Shown in pieces: positions 45,715 through 59,324 of a DNA stretch of 64,000 nt. The first letter of the stretch is position 1; the number at the start of each line of letters is the position of its first letter. The notes below the pieces were generated by a model. It was not told where the DNA came from. It worked only from the letters and a program-made list of their open reading frames with translations, and ran no database searches. Both the position numbers and the translations under genes were made by a program. The stretch is from NCBI RefSeq assembly GCF_001761485.1, contig NC_090770.1:1984001-2048000 (forward strand), in the 5' to 3' direction. Source of the stretch: Yarrowia lipolytica. Taxonomy: Eukaryota > Ascomycota > Dipodascomycetes > Dipodascales.

Positions 45715-48700
45715 CTAGGCCCCACGGCCTCTTTTAGAAGGAACAAACATGCTGGGTGGCGGTCGTCCTCGACTACCTCTATAAGGAGCATTCCCTCTGG
45801 AAGCTCCACGCGGCGGATATCCTCCTCGCCCACCTCCAGGAAGACCCTGATATCCACCTCTATACTCTCCTCCGCTATGTCCTCCTTGGTAGTCGCCACG
45901 GTAACCACCTCGTCCCCCACGATGAGAGTCTCCGCCGTAATGACCTCCTCGGTCACCATGATAACCTCCTCGGTCACCCTGGTAGCCTCCACGGTTGTTG
46001 TTGCCCTGGTAGCCTCCACGGCCACCGTTCCTGTCACCGGATCCATTGTTTCTATTGTTGTCAAAACTGGAATCGTTGTAGTAGTCTCCTCGGCTGTCAT
46101 ACCAATCGTTGCGAGAGTCAGACCGGTTGTCTCGGTCTCGGTTGTCCCGGTTGTCCGGGCGCTTCTCTCGGCCCTGGTAAGAGTTGCTGTCGCTCTTTCG
46201 CTTCTGTCCAGCTGCAGCAGGGCCAGTAGGAGTCTCGGGGGGAGCTGCAGAGCCAGAAGATGGTCCAGTGGAACCAGCAACAATCAGATCCTGCTTTCGC
46301 AGAGGTCGGTTACCATCCATCAACATGTCTCTGTTTCTGGCATCGTTAACGACTTTTCTCCAAATGGTGTTTCGACTGAGAGTGTCGGCGTTACCAAGAA
46401 TCCACATGGACGACCGCGCTCGGGTAAAGGCGACGTTCATTCGCCGTTTATCGGCCAAGAAACCAACGGAATCAGAATCGGGAGAAGCTCGAACACACGA
46501 CATGATGATGATATCCTTCTCTTGACCCTGGAAACCGTCGACAGAGTTGAACTCAATTTTGTCCAGAATATCTCCTCCGTACTCTCGGGTGAAATGTCGC
46601 TTCAGACGCAGCACCTGCTGCTTGTAAGGAGAAATGATACCAATGTCAATCTTGCCGTACATGTTGGACATGAGTCTGTATAGCTGGTCGGCAAGGTGGA
46701 CTTCGGCGTCATTGAAGAAGGAATGGTTTCGCGTAGCCTCCTGGTTGCCCGCAACGTCAAAAAAGGCGTAGGGTGCCAGCTGCTTGTACTCGTGCCACGG
46801 CTTCTTTGTCTTTTCAGCCATACCTGCACCGTCCTTGAGAATACCCCGATAGAACTGCTCACGAGGGAACACAGAGATGTCAGGATGCATACGGTACTGT
46901 GTATCAAGCATATGCAATGCTGAAGGGTTGGCGGTCTGCATACGCACAAACAGCGACTGTTCATACTTAGACTTTGCAGCGACAGTAGAGAGAACGGTGG
47001 GGGGTAGCTGGTTGGGATCTCCAACCATGATGGCATTGGTACATCCGTACTTCATGGGGATGAGAACCGACAATTCAATACACTGACAGGCCTCATCGAT
47101 GATGACCGTCTCAAACGCTACACCCAGACTCTTGAGCATGTTGTGGGAAGACGCAGACAGAGTAGAACATATGATTTCAGCCTCCTTGAGAACCCGAATG
47201 TTAAGGTTTCGCTTCTCGGTCTCCTTTCGTCGGAAGTTGGCAGCATGTTTCTCTCGCTGTTGATCAATTTCAGATCCAATCTTGTTCTTCTCTCGGTTGA
47301 TCACCATGAGACGGGACTGGATACTGGCCACCTCGTCGTTGCTGAGTTTGACACTGTTGTCATCGAGCTTGGCAGACAGCTCTTTACGCTCGTCAAGAAG
47401 CTTGTTCATCTTCTGACGAAGCTCGGGAGTACTGTTGACCACACTGTCTTTCTCCTGCTCCTTGAGTAGTGCGTCAACCCGCTCTTCGAGAACATACTTC
47501 TTGACCTTGGAGTTGACGGCTTCAGATCGGCCAATACGGATGATCTTGGGCTCAGACTTTTGACCAGAAGAGGAATAGATACCGTCGGAGAGTCGCAGCA
47601 CCAATTCGTCCACGGCGGCGTTAGAAGGAGCACACAAAAGAATTCGTCTGTTGTCATTGCCAATATCAGAGGCTTTCTTGGAGAGGAAACTGCCCACAAT
47701 ACCGAGAATTGTCTTGGTCTTACCGGTACCAGGAGGACCCTGGATGAGCGAGAAGCCCGTGTTGTTGAGAGAACCATAGATTGCAGCAGCCTGAGAATCG
47801 TTGACCTTGTAAGTTTTCTGAATATCGGCAAGTTGAGAAGGTGATCCCTTTGGCAAAGGCGATGCCTTGGCCTGCAAAATCTCGTCCTTGAGATCGTACC
47901 ACTCGAGAGCCTTGAGAGATGCATATTCACGCTCAATCGTAACCATGCTGTTGTTAGTATGTAAAATAATGTCGTAGTCGCCTTTATACTCACTTCATAA
48001 CCTTGTAACCCTGCCAAGAAGTCTTGGGGTTAACGTCTCTGGCCACGCCAGTGTTGTTTGTTCGAATGATGATGTCGAAGAACTCTCCAGCAGCCTTGAC
48101 TTCCTTGATTTTACCGAGACACGACGTCTCTCGAGACGAATCTTCGGTAGAAGTCAGCAGAATCAAAGTGCTGTCGTTGATAATGAAATTGTTCATAGTC
48201 TCGGCGGAAATTGATGCATGGATGTCAAAGAACTCGTCCACCGAGGTTCGAGTACCAATCGTGATGTTGAAGAGCTGCTTAGAGTTGAATTGCTCTCGTG
48301 CCTGAGTGATTCCTTGCCAACATTCCAGCAACAGAAGAGGCTCCATCGTCTTGGTGTACTCCTCGACATTCTCAAATTTGTCAGGAACAGTAGTCAGAGT
48401 TTGATCGTCTGTGGGGAAATGACCATCTCGGTTGAATCGCCACAGTAGAATCTTCTTATACAAATTGTCCAACCGAACGTTGAGACGACTTCGCATATTC
48501 CGCTCCTTGAGCTCTGCATTGGACAACCGAGGAGTGTTACCCACTCGCATCTGGGAAGCTCTGCCGACGTTTGTCATGGACGAAATCTGGTTGATTCGAC
48601 GGGCACGAGTCTCCTCCAGTTTCTTCTTCATCTGGGCTGCAAACAGAGTATCGTCTTCGTCGTCAGATTCAGAGTCCTCTTCTTCCTGCTGCTTTCTGTT

Positions 48701-51621
48701 GAATCCAGCAGGTCGAGCGGGCGCAGGCTTCGCAGCCTCTGCTCGGCGGGCCCGCAGCTCAGCTCGCAACAAGTCCTGGGTCTTGTTCTTGTCGGGCAGT
48801 TTATCCAGGCTCGAAACATGAACAGGAGGGTTGGGGATGTTCTTTGCGAAGGAAGTGATGTTAGTCTGTCGAGCGACATTGGTGCCTACAGGTCTGGGAC
48901 GCTCGGCCACAATCTTGGGTTGCGACTCGTTGTGCTCATATAACAGCTCCTCCACCCGCTCCTTGTCCACAGCAGATGTGGCAGTAATCAGTCGAGAGCA
49001 CTGCTCGTTGGTGAGCTTGCTTCGCTTAACTCGCTTGGAAAACATGACAAATACCCGCAGCAGCTCGTCGGGAAGCTTGGCATTGTGTCGCTTCATCAGC
49101 TTGAGAGCCAGACAAATGTTGTCCACAGACTTCTGCAACATATCCACGTCAGCAAGACGCAGCCACTCGGCCATCTGACGCAGAGAAGTGAAAATATTCT
49201 GCACCATATCGGGAGCCTTATCTGTTCCCGAATACTGCAGCATCTTTTCTCGGAATTGTTCAAACGAATCCAGCATGCTGTACGAGTAGTCGAGGACATC
49301 GGTAAGGAAGGTGATCATGAAAGACCGCTCGTACCGGCCACTCCATTTGGCACTCTGCTTGTAAATGGGCTCGAGAACCTGCCAGGACTCCGACCAGAAG
49401 GTCATTAGACAATCGCTGAGAGGCTTGTTGATGTCAGAGTGTCGCTCAAGCATACCGTCACGAGGATTGAGCAAAAGATCAAGCACTTCAATAGCCAGCT
49501 TGATGAGCCGCTGACAGGATCCAAAGGTGGGATCTCGTCGAACGGATGCAAGACACTCGTTGTAGTCCTCAAAAGTGTTGACAATATTATCAGCAAATAT
49601 GGCTGCCCGAGCCCCTCCCGCCGGTCGGATGCTCCAGAGTCTGCAGCAGCAGATCGCACTAAAGAAGCACCAATCTGGTTGATGCTGGAAGAGGTGGAGA
49701 ATAGAAAGATAAGCACCAAACGCTCTCTCACCAGCTCCATAATCTCAGCAGGCTTGAGCATACTGACGCTGCTGAAAATGTCAGCCACGTAGTCTGAAAT
49801 AGCGAGCAAGTCCTTGTTGAATGCAGTTCGGGCCTCGTTGGCCTTAGAGGGGGCGGCAGAGGTCTCTTTAGGGATCGTGAGCTTTTCCAGAAAGACTATA
49901 GGCTTGCATGCCACCAATAGCTTTCGTGCAAAGTCCACATCGAGTCTCGGAGGCTCCACGAGCTTGAGAACGTGGGTCCACAGTCCTTCTCTGAAGACAT
50001 GCACAGACCCAGGCTCCGATTTGCTGCCTAGTTTCTTTGTGTCCAGAACCATGCATGTGATGTCGTACTTGATCAGCGAGCAGAGTAGGGACAGAACCAG
50101 CTTGTCACGGGCAGTGTCTGCACCTCCAAGCAGAGCTACGAGTTTAGAAACATTGGCCTCACACGTTGCTCTGAGCTCTGAAATCTTCGTTAGTGCACTT
50201 TCGGACAGGGACATGATATCATCGGTAGCAGAAGAAACAACACACACTGCACGTTTCAAAGCAAGAGACAGAATAGGATGGTTGTGTTCCAGAGACAAAG
50301 TGATGAGTTTAGACATGGCCGAGGCGGGAAGAGCATTGATCCAGCCGTCTCGGGTGGGTCTATTGAGTTTGAGGAACTCAGCGTTCTTAAACAGGCCGTC
50401 CAGAAAGTACTGAGGGTTCATAGGTGCAGCAAACGCCCAGAAGGGGTCTCCGATCTTCATGACAGCACCCATAAATGACAGAGCAGCTTCCAGGTGACGC
50501 GATTCATGATTGGTGAGGTATGAAACCAGCATTTTGGGCAGGTTCACCAGACTGCAGATGGACATGATAGATACAGGACCCAATTGCATGAATAGGACGG
50601 ATCCTCCAGACAAGAAATCGAGCGTCAGATTCTCCTCCTCGTATTTCTTGCACTGCAAGGCGACATAATCTCGAGTGAGGCTTCCGAAGCCAGATTCGGC
50701 AAGAGCAGCGTCCGAAAATGGTTCCATCTGGCCATCGACAATGAGCTCCTTGATGTTATCGATAAAGGCCCATCGTCTCATTCTGGGGTCGCTATCGAGC
50801 AGGAGGTGGGCAAGGCCGGGGAATATAGTCCGATCTCCCTTGGCATTCTTCAGTTTGAAGAGGTTGACCGAGTTGGGGTGTTTGGACACCACGACGGCAG
50901 CCAGCAATTTCATGAATAGCTCTTTGACTCGGGCGTCCTGCATCAGCTGGGGAGCACACATGACTTCCCACATTGTGTTGATAGGAATGTCTCCCAGCGT
51001 GTGTGGGTCAAAGTTCTCCCCTTCTTGTCCATTCAGCTTAGCCACTCCCATCTCCAGCCGTGGAATGACTCTTCTTGTGTCCCATTGTTGAATGACACGC
51101 GCAAATGCATTGACTTGGTCCAAGCTATAGTTCATGCGGTTCTTGACCGTGTCCATCATCTCGTGTCGCTTGATGTGAAAGTTGATAGCACAGTCCTTAC
51201 AGGATGCCAGCCGCAGTTCCAGGTTCTTCAGCACTGTCTTGGACATGGGAATCAGTCCTACGGCCAGCAGAAAGACGCATCGGATCGACAGTGGTGTCCA
51301 GTCCTCCTTCTTGGGGTCCTCCTTGTCGTTAGGACCTAGAGGGCAAGCCCAATGATGGTCGGTATAGGGCTTTGGGTCTTCGTAGAAGTTCTCAGGCTCG
51401 TCAAGACTGGTGAATTCGACAGTTAGATGGTTGCTCAGGAATCTTAGTGTGGCGAGCGAGGCGGCATTTTGTGCTGTGGGCGAAACATCTCTATATCCCT
51501 GCTGAACAAGCTCCGACACTGTCTCCAGCGGAGGAGGCGATTCCGATTCAGACACTGTGTTAGTAACGAGTCGATATTGGCTGCTAAACAAGACAAACGG
51601 CTTGCGTGAGATATACTTACT
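45715..51621 (-). CDS. SEN1: SEN1 RNA/DNA helicase, three exons, with one apparent frame break
   Basis: Sen1 unwinds RNA:DNA hybrids and ends Pol II transcription of short noncoding RNAs in the nucleus. Exons are 51621 (one base), 47994-51554 and 45715-47947. Intron 1 is GTAAGT ... TACTAACACAG, intron 2 GTGAGT ... TACTAACAACAG (46 bp). The start codon is formed by splicing. With one extra base in a G run at 49612-49615 the product would be 1931 residues. The N-terminal ~1000 residues are the helical Sen1 region. Superfamily 1 motifs follow: QGPPGTGKTKT (I), IDEACQCIELS (II), GDPNQLPPTV (III), QYRMHP (IV), VDGFQGQE (V) and VAFTRARSS (VI). An RG/GY-rich tail ends SMFVPSKRGRGA. The conserved lead-in is TIEREYASLKALEWYDL. 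Confidence 0.93.
45721..46040 (-). repeat. RG/RGGY-rich repeats encoding the SEN1 tail
   Basis: About 100 codons encode repeated RGGYQG, RGGYHGD and GGRGGY units. Such RGG tracts bind RNA and are targets for arginine methylation. The DNA repeats are imperfect, with a period of about 21-24 bp. Confidence 0.65.
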
Positions 51622-52329
51622 CGTGTACAGCTGCTTGGTGACACACGTTCCCTAATGCCTGGATGCACAAGTTGGCTAAGAGAGGTTGGTCTTCGAAATT
51701 TCTGTTAGACTTTCGCCCGTGGGTTCAGGGTTGTGGTAGGTATCACACGTCCACTTTGAAGAATCCATTTATTGGGATCTCGCGTTTGAACTGTATATTT
51801 GGGCGGGAGAGTTGGCGATCAGGTGATATATGAGGTGGAGGACGAGCGAGGCGCGTATGTGATATGTAGTTAGCTGCTTATATCGAGGGTGCAAGTGGCA
51901 ATGAAACGTTTTTCATGTTATAATATCAAATCAAACTCCTTATTGTGGTTATGCCGGCCGGCATCTTGTATGCACACTGTAGCTACTGGTAGCTCTTGCT
52001 TGGTACTGTAGCTCTTTATCGTATGTACAGTAGATAAATTACAGGTTTTACGGATATTTGAAATGAACAATACAAGTAGAGTACGACATGTACAGCAAAA
52101 TAATGTAAAGATCTATAGTATATATATTATCATCATCTGTAGCGCCTCCTTTTATATGTCGACGGGTGAATTGCTCCGATTGTAGTGGAAACAAATCTCT
52201 GTGTAAGTTGTGTGGCAGATTGTATCTCAGTCTAGGGATCTATGCATATAATAAAATGTTCGTTTTGCCTAGCTAATAAATAATCTACAACTTGCTTTGA
52301 GTGGTTCGTCGTCCCCACTCGCCTGCGAG
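51622..52329. other. SEN1 5' region and peroxiredoxin 3' flank
   Basis: The first ~100 bp include the untranslated first exon of SEN1, running up to the base at 51621. A GCCGGCCGGC palindrome is at about 51955. An AT-rich block with ATATATATTA lies near 52118-52130. No gene seen. Confidence 0.5.
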
Positions 52330-56724: not shown

Positions 56725-59324
56725 ATGAGGTGAGTCGATGGGACAGGAATAGCGAGGAAGAGGCGAGAGTGGAGGAGAAGGGGCATTGTAATGGTGGTTG
56801 CATCAGCGGAATGCCACGTATGCAACCCCTCCCCCCCAAAAAAAAAAGAAAAAACAGAACTAACCCAGTGGAAGATTCGTCCGATCATCGAAGTACCGAC
56901 ATGTCTACGGACAGTCGACCAAGAAGGAGCTTTGCTACGACAATGTGCGAGTGAGGTGAGTATCAAGAGGAATGCGAGAGAGATGGAGGAAGAGGATTGT
57001 CTACGACCGATGGATCAATTCGTTTTGCGTACCGTTTTGTTGATTGATGTGATGATAAAAAAGCACACCCATCCCTAAACAACACACGATATTACAGCAC
57101 ACGACACACATACCTAAACAGCACAACCCAAAACGAAATCACGCTAAGTGAGAGACATGGGGAATGGGGAATGGCCATTGAGTGTTGGACCGACCTTGCA
57201 AGACGCTTGCAATGGTCATAAACGCCTGTAGCCACCTCATCATTCCAACGCTAACCCAGCAACAACGCTTGGGACTCTAACCTGCTCAAGGTCAACCCCG
57301 AGTACATCTCTCTTAACTGGGAGGCTTCTGGAGGAGGAGCTTTTGCCGTCATCCCCCTCTCCCACAAGGGTAAGCTGCCCGATCAGATTCCTCTCTTCCG
57401 AGGTCACACCTCTGCTGTTCTCGACACAGACTTCAACCCTTTCAACGACCAGGTGATTGCCTCTGCCTCTGACGACGGCAAGATCGGTCTGTGGAAGGTT
57501 CCCGATGACTACCGAATCGTCTACGAGCCTGAGGAGGAGATTGAGGACGTTGCTCCCGTCGCCAAGCTCTCTGGCCACCAGCGAAAGGTCGGACACGTCA
57601 AGTTCCACCCCACCGCCAACAACGTGCTGGCCTCCTCTTCGGCTGACTACACTGTCAAGCTGTGGGACGTTGAGGCCCAGAAGGCCCACCAGTCTCTGGC
57701 CCACAAGGACATTATCACCTCCTTTGACTACAACCAGGACGGTACTCTGCTCGTCACCACTTCTCGAGACAAGCAGATTCGAGTTTGGGATCTCCGAACC
57801 GGCGAGATTGTCAGCTCCGGCCCCGGCCACACCGGTGCCAAGAACTCGCGAGTTGTCTGGCTTGACTCTGACCGAATCGCTACCACTGGTTTCTCCAAGC
57901 TTTCCGACCGACAGCTGGCTCTGTGGAACGCCTCCGACATCGCTGCCGGACCCATTGGCGGCTTCCGATACCTAGACTCGTCCTCCGGTATCTGCATGCC
58001 CTTCTTCGACCACGACACCAAGACCCTGTTCCTGGCCGGCAAGGGAGATGGAAACATCCGATACTACGAGTACGGCAACGACGACTTCTTCGAGCTGTCC
58101 GAGTACCAGAGCACAGACCCCCAACGAGGCATTGCCTTCATGCCCAAGCGGGCTCTCAACATCAAGGGCAACGAGATTGTGCGAGCCTACAAGACTGTCA
58201 AGGACTCCTACATTGAGCCCGTTGGCTTCTACGTGCCCCGACGAGCCGAGACCTTCCAGTCTGACATCTACCCCGACTGTTACGCCGGTGTTCCTTCCGT
58301 CGAGGCTGAGGAGTTCTTCGAGGGCAAGTCTTCTCGACCCTACGTTGTCGACGTTGAGATTCTCTACGAGGACAAGCCCATCACCAAGGACAATGTTCAT
58401 GAGGCTGCCGAGGACAAGACGGAGCTCAAGAAGCCCGAGCCTACTCCCACTGCTTCCCCCGCCCTTGGTTCCAAGGCCTCCGAGCCCGTTTCCAAGTCTG
58501 CGGAGCCCAAGGAGGAGAAGCCTGATCTGCAGTCTAAGGGCTCTTTCGGCACTTCCTCTTCTGCCTTTTCTGGCGACAAGGTCAACTCCATGTTGGCCAA
58601 GGCCTCTGAGGAGGAGGAGCCCCGAAAGAAGGAGGACGAGAACAATGACGAGTGGGAGAACTCCGGTCTGCTGGCCACCCGAAACCGTCTCGCAAAGACC
58701 GGCAAGATCGAGCTCGTCCACCAGGCTGCTTCTGGCGGTAAGACTCTGACCGAGAAGGAGATTGGCGCCATGGTCAAGAGCGGCAAGATCAGCTCTTCCG
58801 AGGGTGCCAAGGCCGTCGAGAAGGTCCGGGAGGAAGAGGCTAAGGAGGCCAAGGAGGCCGAGGACAAGAAGTCCGAGCCTGTCGAGGAGAAGAAGCCTGA
58901 GCCCGTTGAGGAGAAGAAGCCTGAGCCCGTTGAGGAGAAGAAGCCCGAGCCTGTCGAGGAGAAGAAGCCCGAGCCTGTCGAGGAGAAGAAGCCCGAGCCT
59001 GTCGAGGAGAAGTCCACTGAGAACGGAAAGGACGAGTCTGAGATCAACCCTCTCCCTCTGCTCAAGGAGGAGTCTCTCCCTCAGACTGACTCTGCCACCA
59101 CTGCTGCTGCCTCTTCCGGTGACTCTGACAAGCGAATCTCTTCCCTGGAGGAGCTGGTGCAGTCTCTGGTTTCCCAGGTCAAGAGCCAGCAGGAGACCAT
59201 CCAGCAGCTCAGCAAGAAGCTGGATGCCTGCACCGACTGTTGTGCCACCGACGCCGCTCCTTCCAAGAACGAGTGTGCCAACCGACCCGAGGGCGCCGAG
59301 CAGTGCGACAACTGTGATTGCTAA
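56725..59324 (+). CDS. CRN1: Coronin, actin-binding WD-repeat protein, three exons
   Basis: Exons are 56725-56729 (ATG AG only), 56869-56955 and 57260-59324, giving 718 residues. Introns begin GTGAGT and end ACTAACCCAG and GCTAACCCAG. Coronin crosslinks and protects actin filaments and acts with Arp2/3 at cortical patches. The spliced N-terminus MSGRFVRSSKYRHVYGQ is the coronin signature, followed by the seven-bladed propeller (residues ~65-350: SASDDGKIGLW, SSADYTVKLWD, SRDKQIRVWDL) and ending near FVPRRAETFQ-type YVPRRAETFQ. Then come a low-complexity stalk with a PEPVEEKK octapeptide array, a short coiled coil (SSLEELVQSLVSQVKS) and an unusual Cys-rich end. The first ATG in the third exon (57453) is internal. 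Confidence 0.96.
58872..59012 (+). repeat. 24-bp tandem repeat encoding PEPVEEKK in coronin
   Basis: Six copies (141 bp) of an eight-residue unit, the last one lacking its final lysine codon. Copies differ by synonymous changes only, apart from Ser in place of Pro in the first. Net charge is negative; the part is probably a flexible linker before the coiled coil. Confidence 0.9.

Follow-up and report, generated by a model that had tools for sequence, protein, structure and literature searches.

The SEN1 locus and its first intron

The window, that is, the whole 64,000 nt stretch of Yarrowia lipolytica DNA that was analysed, spans 1984001–2048000 of contig 1 and carries on its minus strand gene SEN1, which runs from a split start codon to the stop codon (positions 45715–51621). 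Pfam matches to SEN1_N, to the beta-barrel (SEN1_barrel) and to the SF1 helicase domains (AAA_11/AAA_12) identify the deduced product as a Sen1 helicase; the best SEN1_N stretch starts at residue 111. A comparison of the N-terminal 648 residues with solved structures retrieved no relative up to an E value of 1, the four matches at E about 0.9 being at chance level.

The first intron of SEN1 (positions 51555–51620, minus strand) is 66 nt long, with 42% GC, and contains a GTAAGT donor and a TACTAAC branch point that is separated by a single base from the CAG acceptor. The last base of exon 1, at 51621, is the A of the start codon, in agreement with the Met at the start of the database protein P0001 (see below), and exon 2 opens with the remaining TG (51553–51554). 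The preliminary description had the donor beginning at 51620 and the acceptor, TACTAACACAG, ending at 51555, where it is followed on the minus strand by TGTCTGAATCGG, and both positions are exact. It had also proposed that joining the A at 51621 to the TG at 51554–51553 creates an ATG in frame with the N-terminal region of SEN1, and the window sequence bears this out; after removal of the 66 nt the gene reads ATG TCT GAA TCG GAA, in the frame of the conserved N-terminal region.

The contiguous frame lacks an ATG from the upstream stop (51654) as far as position 51246, and RNA retaining intron 1 would first meet an in-frame ATG at 51244–51246, which in the spliced protein is codon 104. Three out-of-frame AUGs precede it, between the junction and 51246: the one at 51488 opens an ORF of 14 codons, that at 51467 an ORF of 7 and that at 51280 an ORF of 27. 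The claim that unspliced RNA would have no proper start thus holds, whereas the accompanying claim that the unspliced frame opens with TTG only is inexact: there is a TTG at 51591, inside the intron, but the near-cognate codons of the contiguous frame up to codon 1 also include GTG (at 51555), CTG and ACG. The length of the intron is a multiple of three, it has no in-frame stop, and 32 codons of open frame precede codon 1. We also considered the sole ATG within 200 nt upstream of the junction, at 51768, as an upstream start, and rejected it because its 30-codon ORF (51676–51768, minus strand) stops ahead of the junction and of the split ATG; it could be an upstream ORF if transcription begins upstream of it.

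Relatives of SEN1 and conservation across the junction

Two protein searches, in which the sequences sharing most words were scored (7990 candidates in one and 425 in the other), retrieved the same three relatives, P0001, P0002 and P0003. P0001, from Y. lipolytica, is 99% identical to the SEN1 product of the window over residues 1–700 and, up to residue 1187, differs from it only at residue 152 outside a discontinuous stretch. It starts with MSESESPPPLETV (MSESESPPP), exactly at the split ATG, a start that the window DNA gives only via the splice. The start at the split ATG is therefore already present in a database protein, although the comparison was made at the protein level and P0001 is possibly a computed gene model.

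The product from Yarrowia sp. C11/E02, P0002, is 91% identical over residues 1–700 and starts with MPLYT-MSDSD. Its residues LYT correspond to the exon 1 codons CTG TAC ACG (51622–51630, minus strand), which in the spliced frame come immediately before the Met completed by exon 2; P0002 thus resembles the window product in having these codons joined to the same Met, as well as in reading across intron 2. It differs in that the record begins five residues earlier with a Met of its own, so that the split ATG need not be its start. P0003 (82% identity) reads MCPTNA-V-SDSQ and looks unspliced at the junction, where T-N-A-V fits ACT AAC GCA GTG, i.e., the branch point and acceptor directly before the TG. 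In both relatives, for which only proteins were compared and the codons are deduced from the residues, there is an extra Met, upstream of the split codon in P0002 and, in frame, apparently inside the intron in P0003. To judge from these alignments, P0002 and P0003 do not seem to depend on the split ATG alone.

The P0003 record also differs further downstream. SEN1 contains a second intron, missed in the preliminary description, of 46 nt (47948–47993, minus strand), in phase 2, with a GTGAGT donor and ending in TACTAACAACAG, which lies shortly ahead of the helicase domain. P0003 ends at this intron, and the other two records, P0001 and P0002, read across it; intron 2 is apparently kept in P0003, since its ORF ends (GYKVMK) where the donor of the Y. 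lipolytica intron begins. Separately, the SEN1 frame is broken between about 49600 and 49660 (minus strand) in this assembly and is unbroken there in P0001, P0002 and P0003; this is likely a local sequence error or a strain difference. Intact copies exist.

Conservation was also examined along the four aligned rows, in which 86 of the 103 positions preceding codon 104 are identical, compared with 414/544 for residues 104–647 and 475/532 for residues 656–1187; within the N-terminal region, residues 1–7 alone are variable (2/7 identical). These data bear on the idea that there is no intron, translation starting at 51246 and the conserved frame upstream being untranslated or a chance match. That the best SEN1_N stretch, from residue 111 on, falls after the codon-104 Met agrees with such a start. 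However, residues 1–103 are at least as conserved as residues 104–647, indicating that the region ahead of the codon-104 Met behaves as coding, and ribosomes would have to pass the three out-of-frame AUGs that lie between the junction and 51246; we consider the probability of this explanation to be practically negligible.

Candidate start codon introns in the window and the genome

A pattern describing this type of intron (AGTRAGT-N22..83-CTAAC-N0..2-AGTG) had a single match on both strands of the window, against an average of 0.01 over 100 dinucleotide-shuffled sequences. Over the genome (20,500,066 bases in 6 contigs), the same pattern, with gaps of 22–83 nt only, so that the counts are lower bounds, gave at least 18 matches (14 + 4), against at least four (3 + 1) for a reversed control pattern. 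In half of the 18 matches (L004, which is SEN1, L005, L009, L010, L011, L012, L016, L018 and L019) the frame after A|TG is open for at least 501 codons, the limit of the loci examined, and in the other nine for fewer than 130. An in-frame upstream ATG was found for L005, three codons upstream, and for L013 and L014, and for none of the other eight loci with long ORFs. Consequently, SEN1 and seven others are candidate split starts, with at least 501 open codons and no in-frame upstream ATG, and the pattern alone is no proof of a start codon intron, as nine of 18 matches open short frames and three have an upstream ATG.

Pfam assigned U3snoRNP10 to L011, CNOT1 domains to L019, SPX plus ankyrin repeats to L016, prolyl-tRNA synthetase domains to L018 and a UBR box to L005; at a threshold of 1e-5, there was no Pfam match for L009, L010 and L012. 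Several of the candidates with long ORFs (L011, L019 and SEN1 itself) have the look of RNA-handling functions, in a set that is too small for a trend. An in-frame ATG also occurs inside the intron of L009, L017 and L018. The start-codon-splitting introns of L018 (G000:C5:592924, prolyl-tRNA synthetase) and L017 (G000:C1:1037743), the latter opening only 37 codons, are almost the same; with the in-frame ATG in the L018 intron (MTRKTNDATNKV-PP), spliced and unspliced RNAs could give two N-termini in L018/L017.

A wider scan of the window for GTGAGT or GTAAGT donors, with introns of 40–900 nt, an ATG in exon 1 and at least 120 open codons after the intron, yielded six candidate introns. One of these, that of SEN1, splits the ATG, and another (56730–57259, plus strand; 530 nt) begins two bases after an ATG and precedes a frame with a WD40_4 repeat, which we take to be coronin-like.

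Introns of this class have already been described in Y. lipolytica. According to the main text of Mekouar et al. (2010; PMC2911113), there are 47 genes in which the start codon's A alone makes up the first coding exon. The main text of Qi et al. (2026; PMC13309789) reports 42 "start codon" introns, whose 5′ splice site immediately follows the first, second or third base of the start codon. SEN1 shares with the one-base-exon genes the separation of A from TG, the branch point joined to the 3′ splice site and the short intron, and we found no difference in kind from their main-text description; it likewise shares with the second class, which is broader and takes in introns after AT or ATG, a 5′ splice site that falls inside the start codon or immediately behind it. 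In SEN1 the intron lies directly after the A, with TG opening exon 2, the splice signals are of the species type (GTRAGT, CTAAC, about one base, YAG), and the joined ATG opens a conserved protein with no contiguous in-frame ATG ahead of it. The name SEN1 is absent from the main texts of both articles, and a literature search for phrases denoting a split or interrupted start codon returned no match. The split start of SEN1 is an already known kind of feature in a known species.

Probable splicing of intron 1 and the start of Sen1

Comparison with the survey of Qi et al. (2026; PMC13309789), as given in its main text, indicates that intron 1 of SEN1 has the commonest branch point (ACTAAC, 67.5%), the commonest spacing between branch point and acceptor (one base, 72.5%) and the commonest acceptor (CAG, 79.5%) of Y. 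lipolytica. Its donor, GTAAGT, is the second commonest (5.9% of canonical introns) and pairs fully with U1 by Watson-Crick pairing; the best-spliced donor in the species is GTGAGT, not GTAAGT. The GC content of the intron, 0.42, is inside the range of well-spliced introns (0.35–0.55), and in the same survey introns near the start codon show the highest splicing efficiency, better than that of UTR introns, and their genes the highest and least variable expression. Judged by these frequencies, the signals of SEN1 intron 1 are near-optimal for the species, so that constitutive splicing is to be expected.

We therefore regard it as very probable that the SEN1 start codon is interrupted, in phase 1, by an ordinary spliceosomal intron, most likely spliced constitutively and efficiently. 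Splicing would join the terminal A of exon 1 to the TG of exon 2, and scanning ribosomes would start at the resulting ATG. In unspliced RNA, ribosomes would instead start at the out-of-frame AUGs with short ORFs, and such RNA would be wasted, probably via nonsense-mediated decay.

Stop-free introns are scarce in Y. lipolytica, 88 being reported in the main text of PMC2911113 versus 1,083 coding-region introns analysed, and SEN1 intron 1 is less typical in lacking the in-frame stop by which retained RNA is usually marked. As no upstream AUG is in frame, the missing stop would have no consequence unless a near-cognate codon were used. The intron-retaining RNA might then also be translated from such a codon, giving a Sen1 with an alternative N-terminus, as would be allowed by the stop-free 66 nt and by the 32 open codons upstream of codon 1, with their CTG, ACG and TTG; moreover, in P0003 the putative branch point is closely preceded by an in-frame Met, with which the called ORF begins. 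However, five of the 17 other introns from the genome scan (L006, L007, L010, L013 and L016) have longer open frames, so that this length is common, and the start of P0003 is an ORF call only. We consider this alternative very improbable.

The preliminary description further saw in the split codon a possible control switch. In such a switch, certain conditions or the activity of Sen1 itself would raise the retention of intron 1 and thereby shut off Sen1 production. Codon 104 is indeed the first in-frame AUG of retained RNA, and according to a section heading in PMC13309789 splicing efficiency in Y. lipolytica generally responds to carbon source and growth phase. Signs of regulation were sought in region 51400–51768 by comparing the counts of three motifs with those in shuffled sequences. 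These motifs, GTAR, TCTT and CTTG, are those of S. cerevisiae Nrd1/Nab3, which act in Sen1-linked termination. TCTT and CTTG were weakly raised, with four occurrences each versus 1.5 in shuffles (a count reached by 22 and 24 of 500 shuffles, respectively), to which we give no weight with three motifs tried; GTAR was not enriched (one occurrence versus a shuffle mean of 2.35). There was thus no convincing enrichment of the three motifs near the SEN1 start. The splice signals are strong, the P0002 and P0003 proteins do not show reliance on the split ATG alone, and the class of introns has already been described in the species. A special control switch is consequently unsupported, and we deem regulated retention improbable.

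The comparison of P0001, P0002 and P0003 suggests a modest evolutionary point, that start sites can shift round a conserved first intron. In its fullest form, the SEN1 start would have moved in Yarrowia round one conserved intron, lying at a full upstream ATG in exon 1 in Yarrowia sp. C11/E02, at an intronic ATG in P0003 and, in Y. lipolytica, only at the ATG made by the splice, so that Sen1 output would be strictly gated by splicing in this species alone and could feed back on the role of Sen1 in transcription; we advance this scenario as a speculation with a small chance of being correct. The regulatory idea would matter only if retention at the SEN1 junction proves to be controlled. For gene prediction, SEN1 of Y. 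lipolytica offers a clean example, in which ORF callers that require a contiguous ATG would lose the first 103 residues of Sen1.
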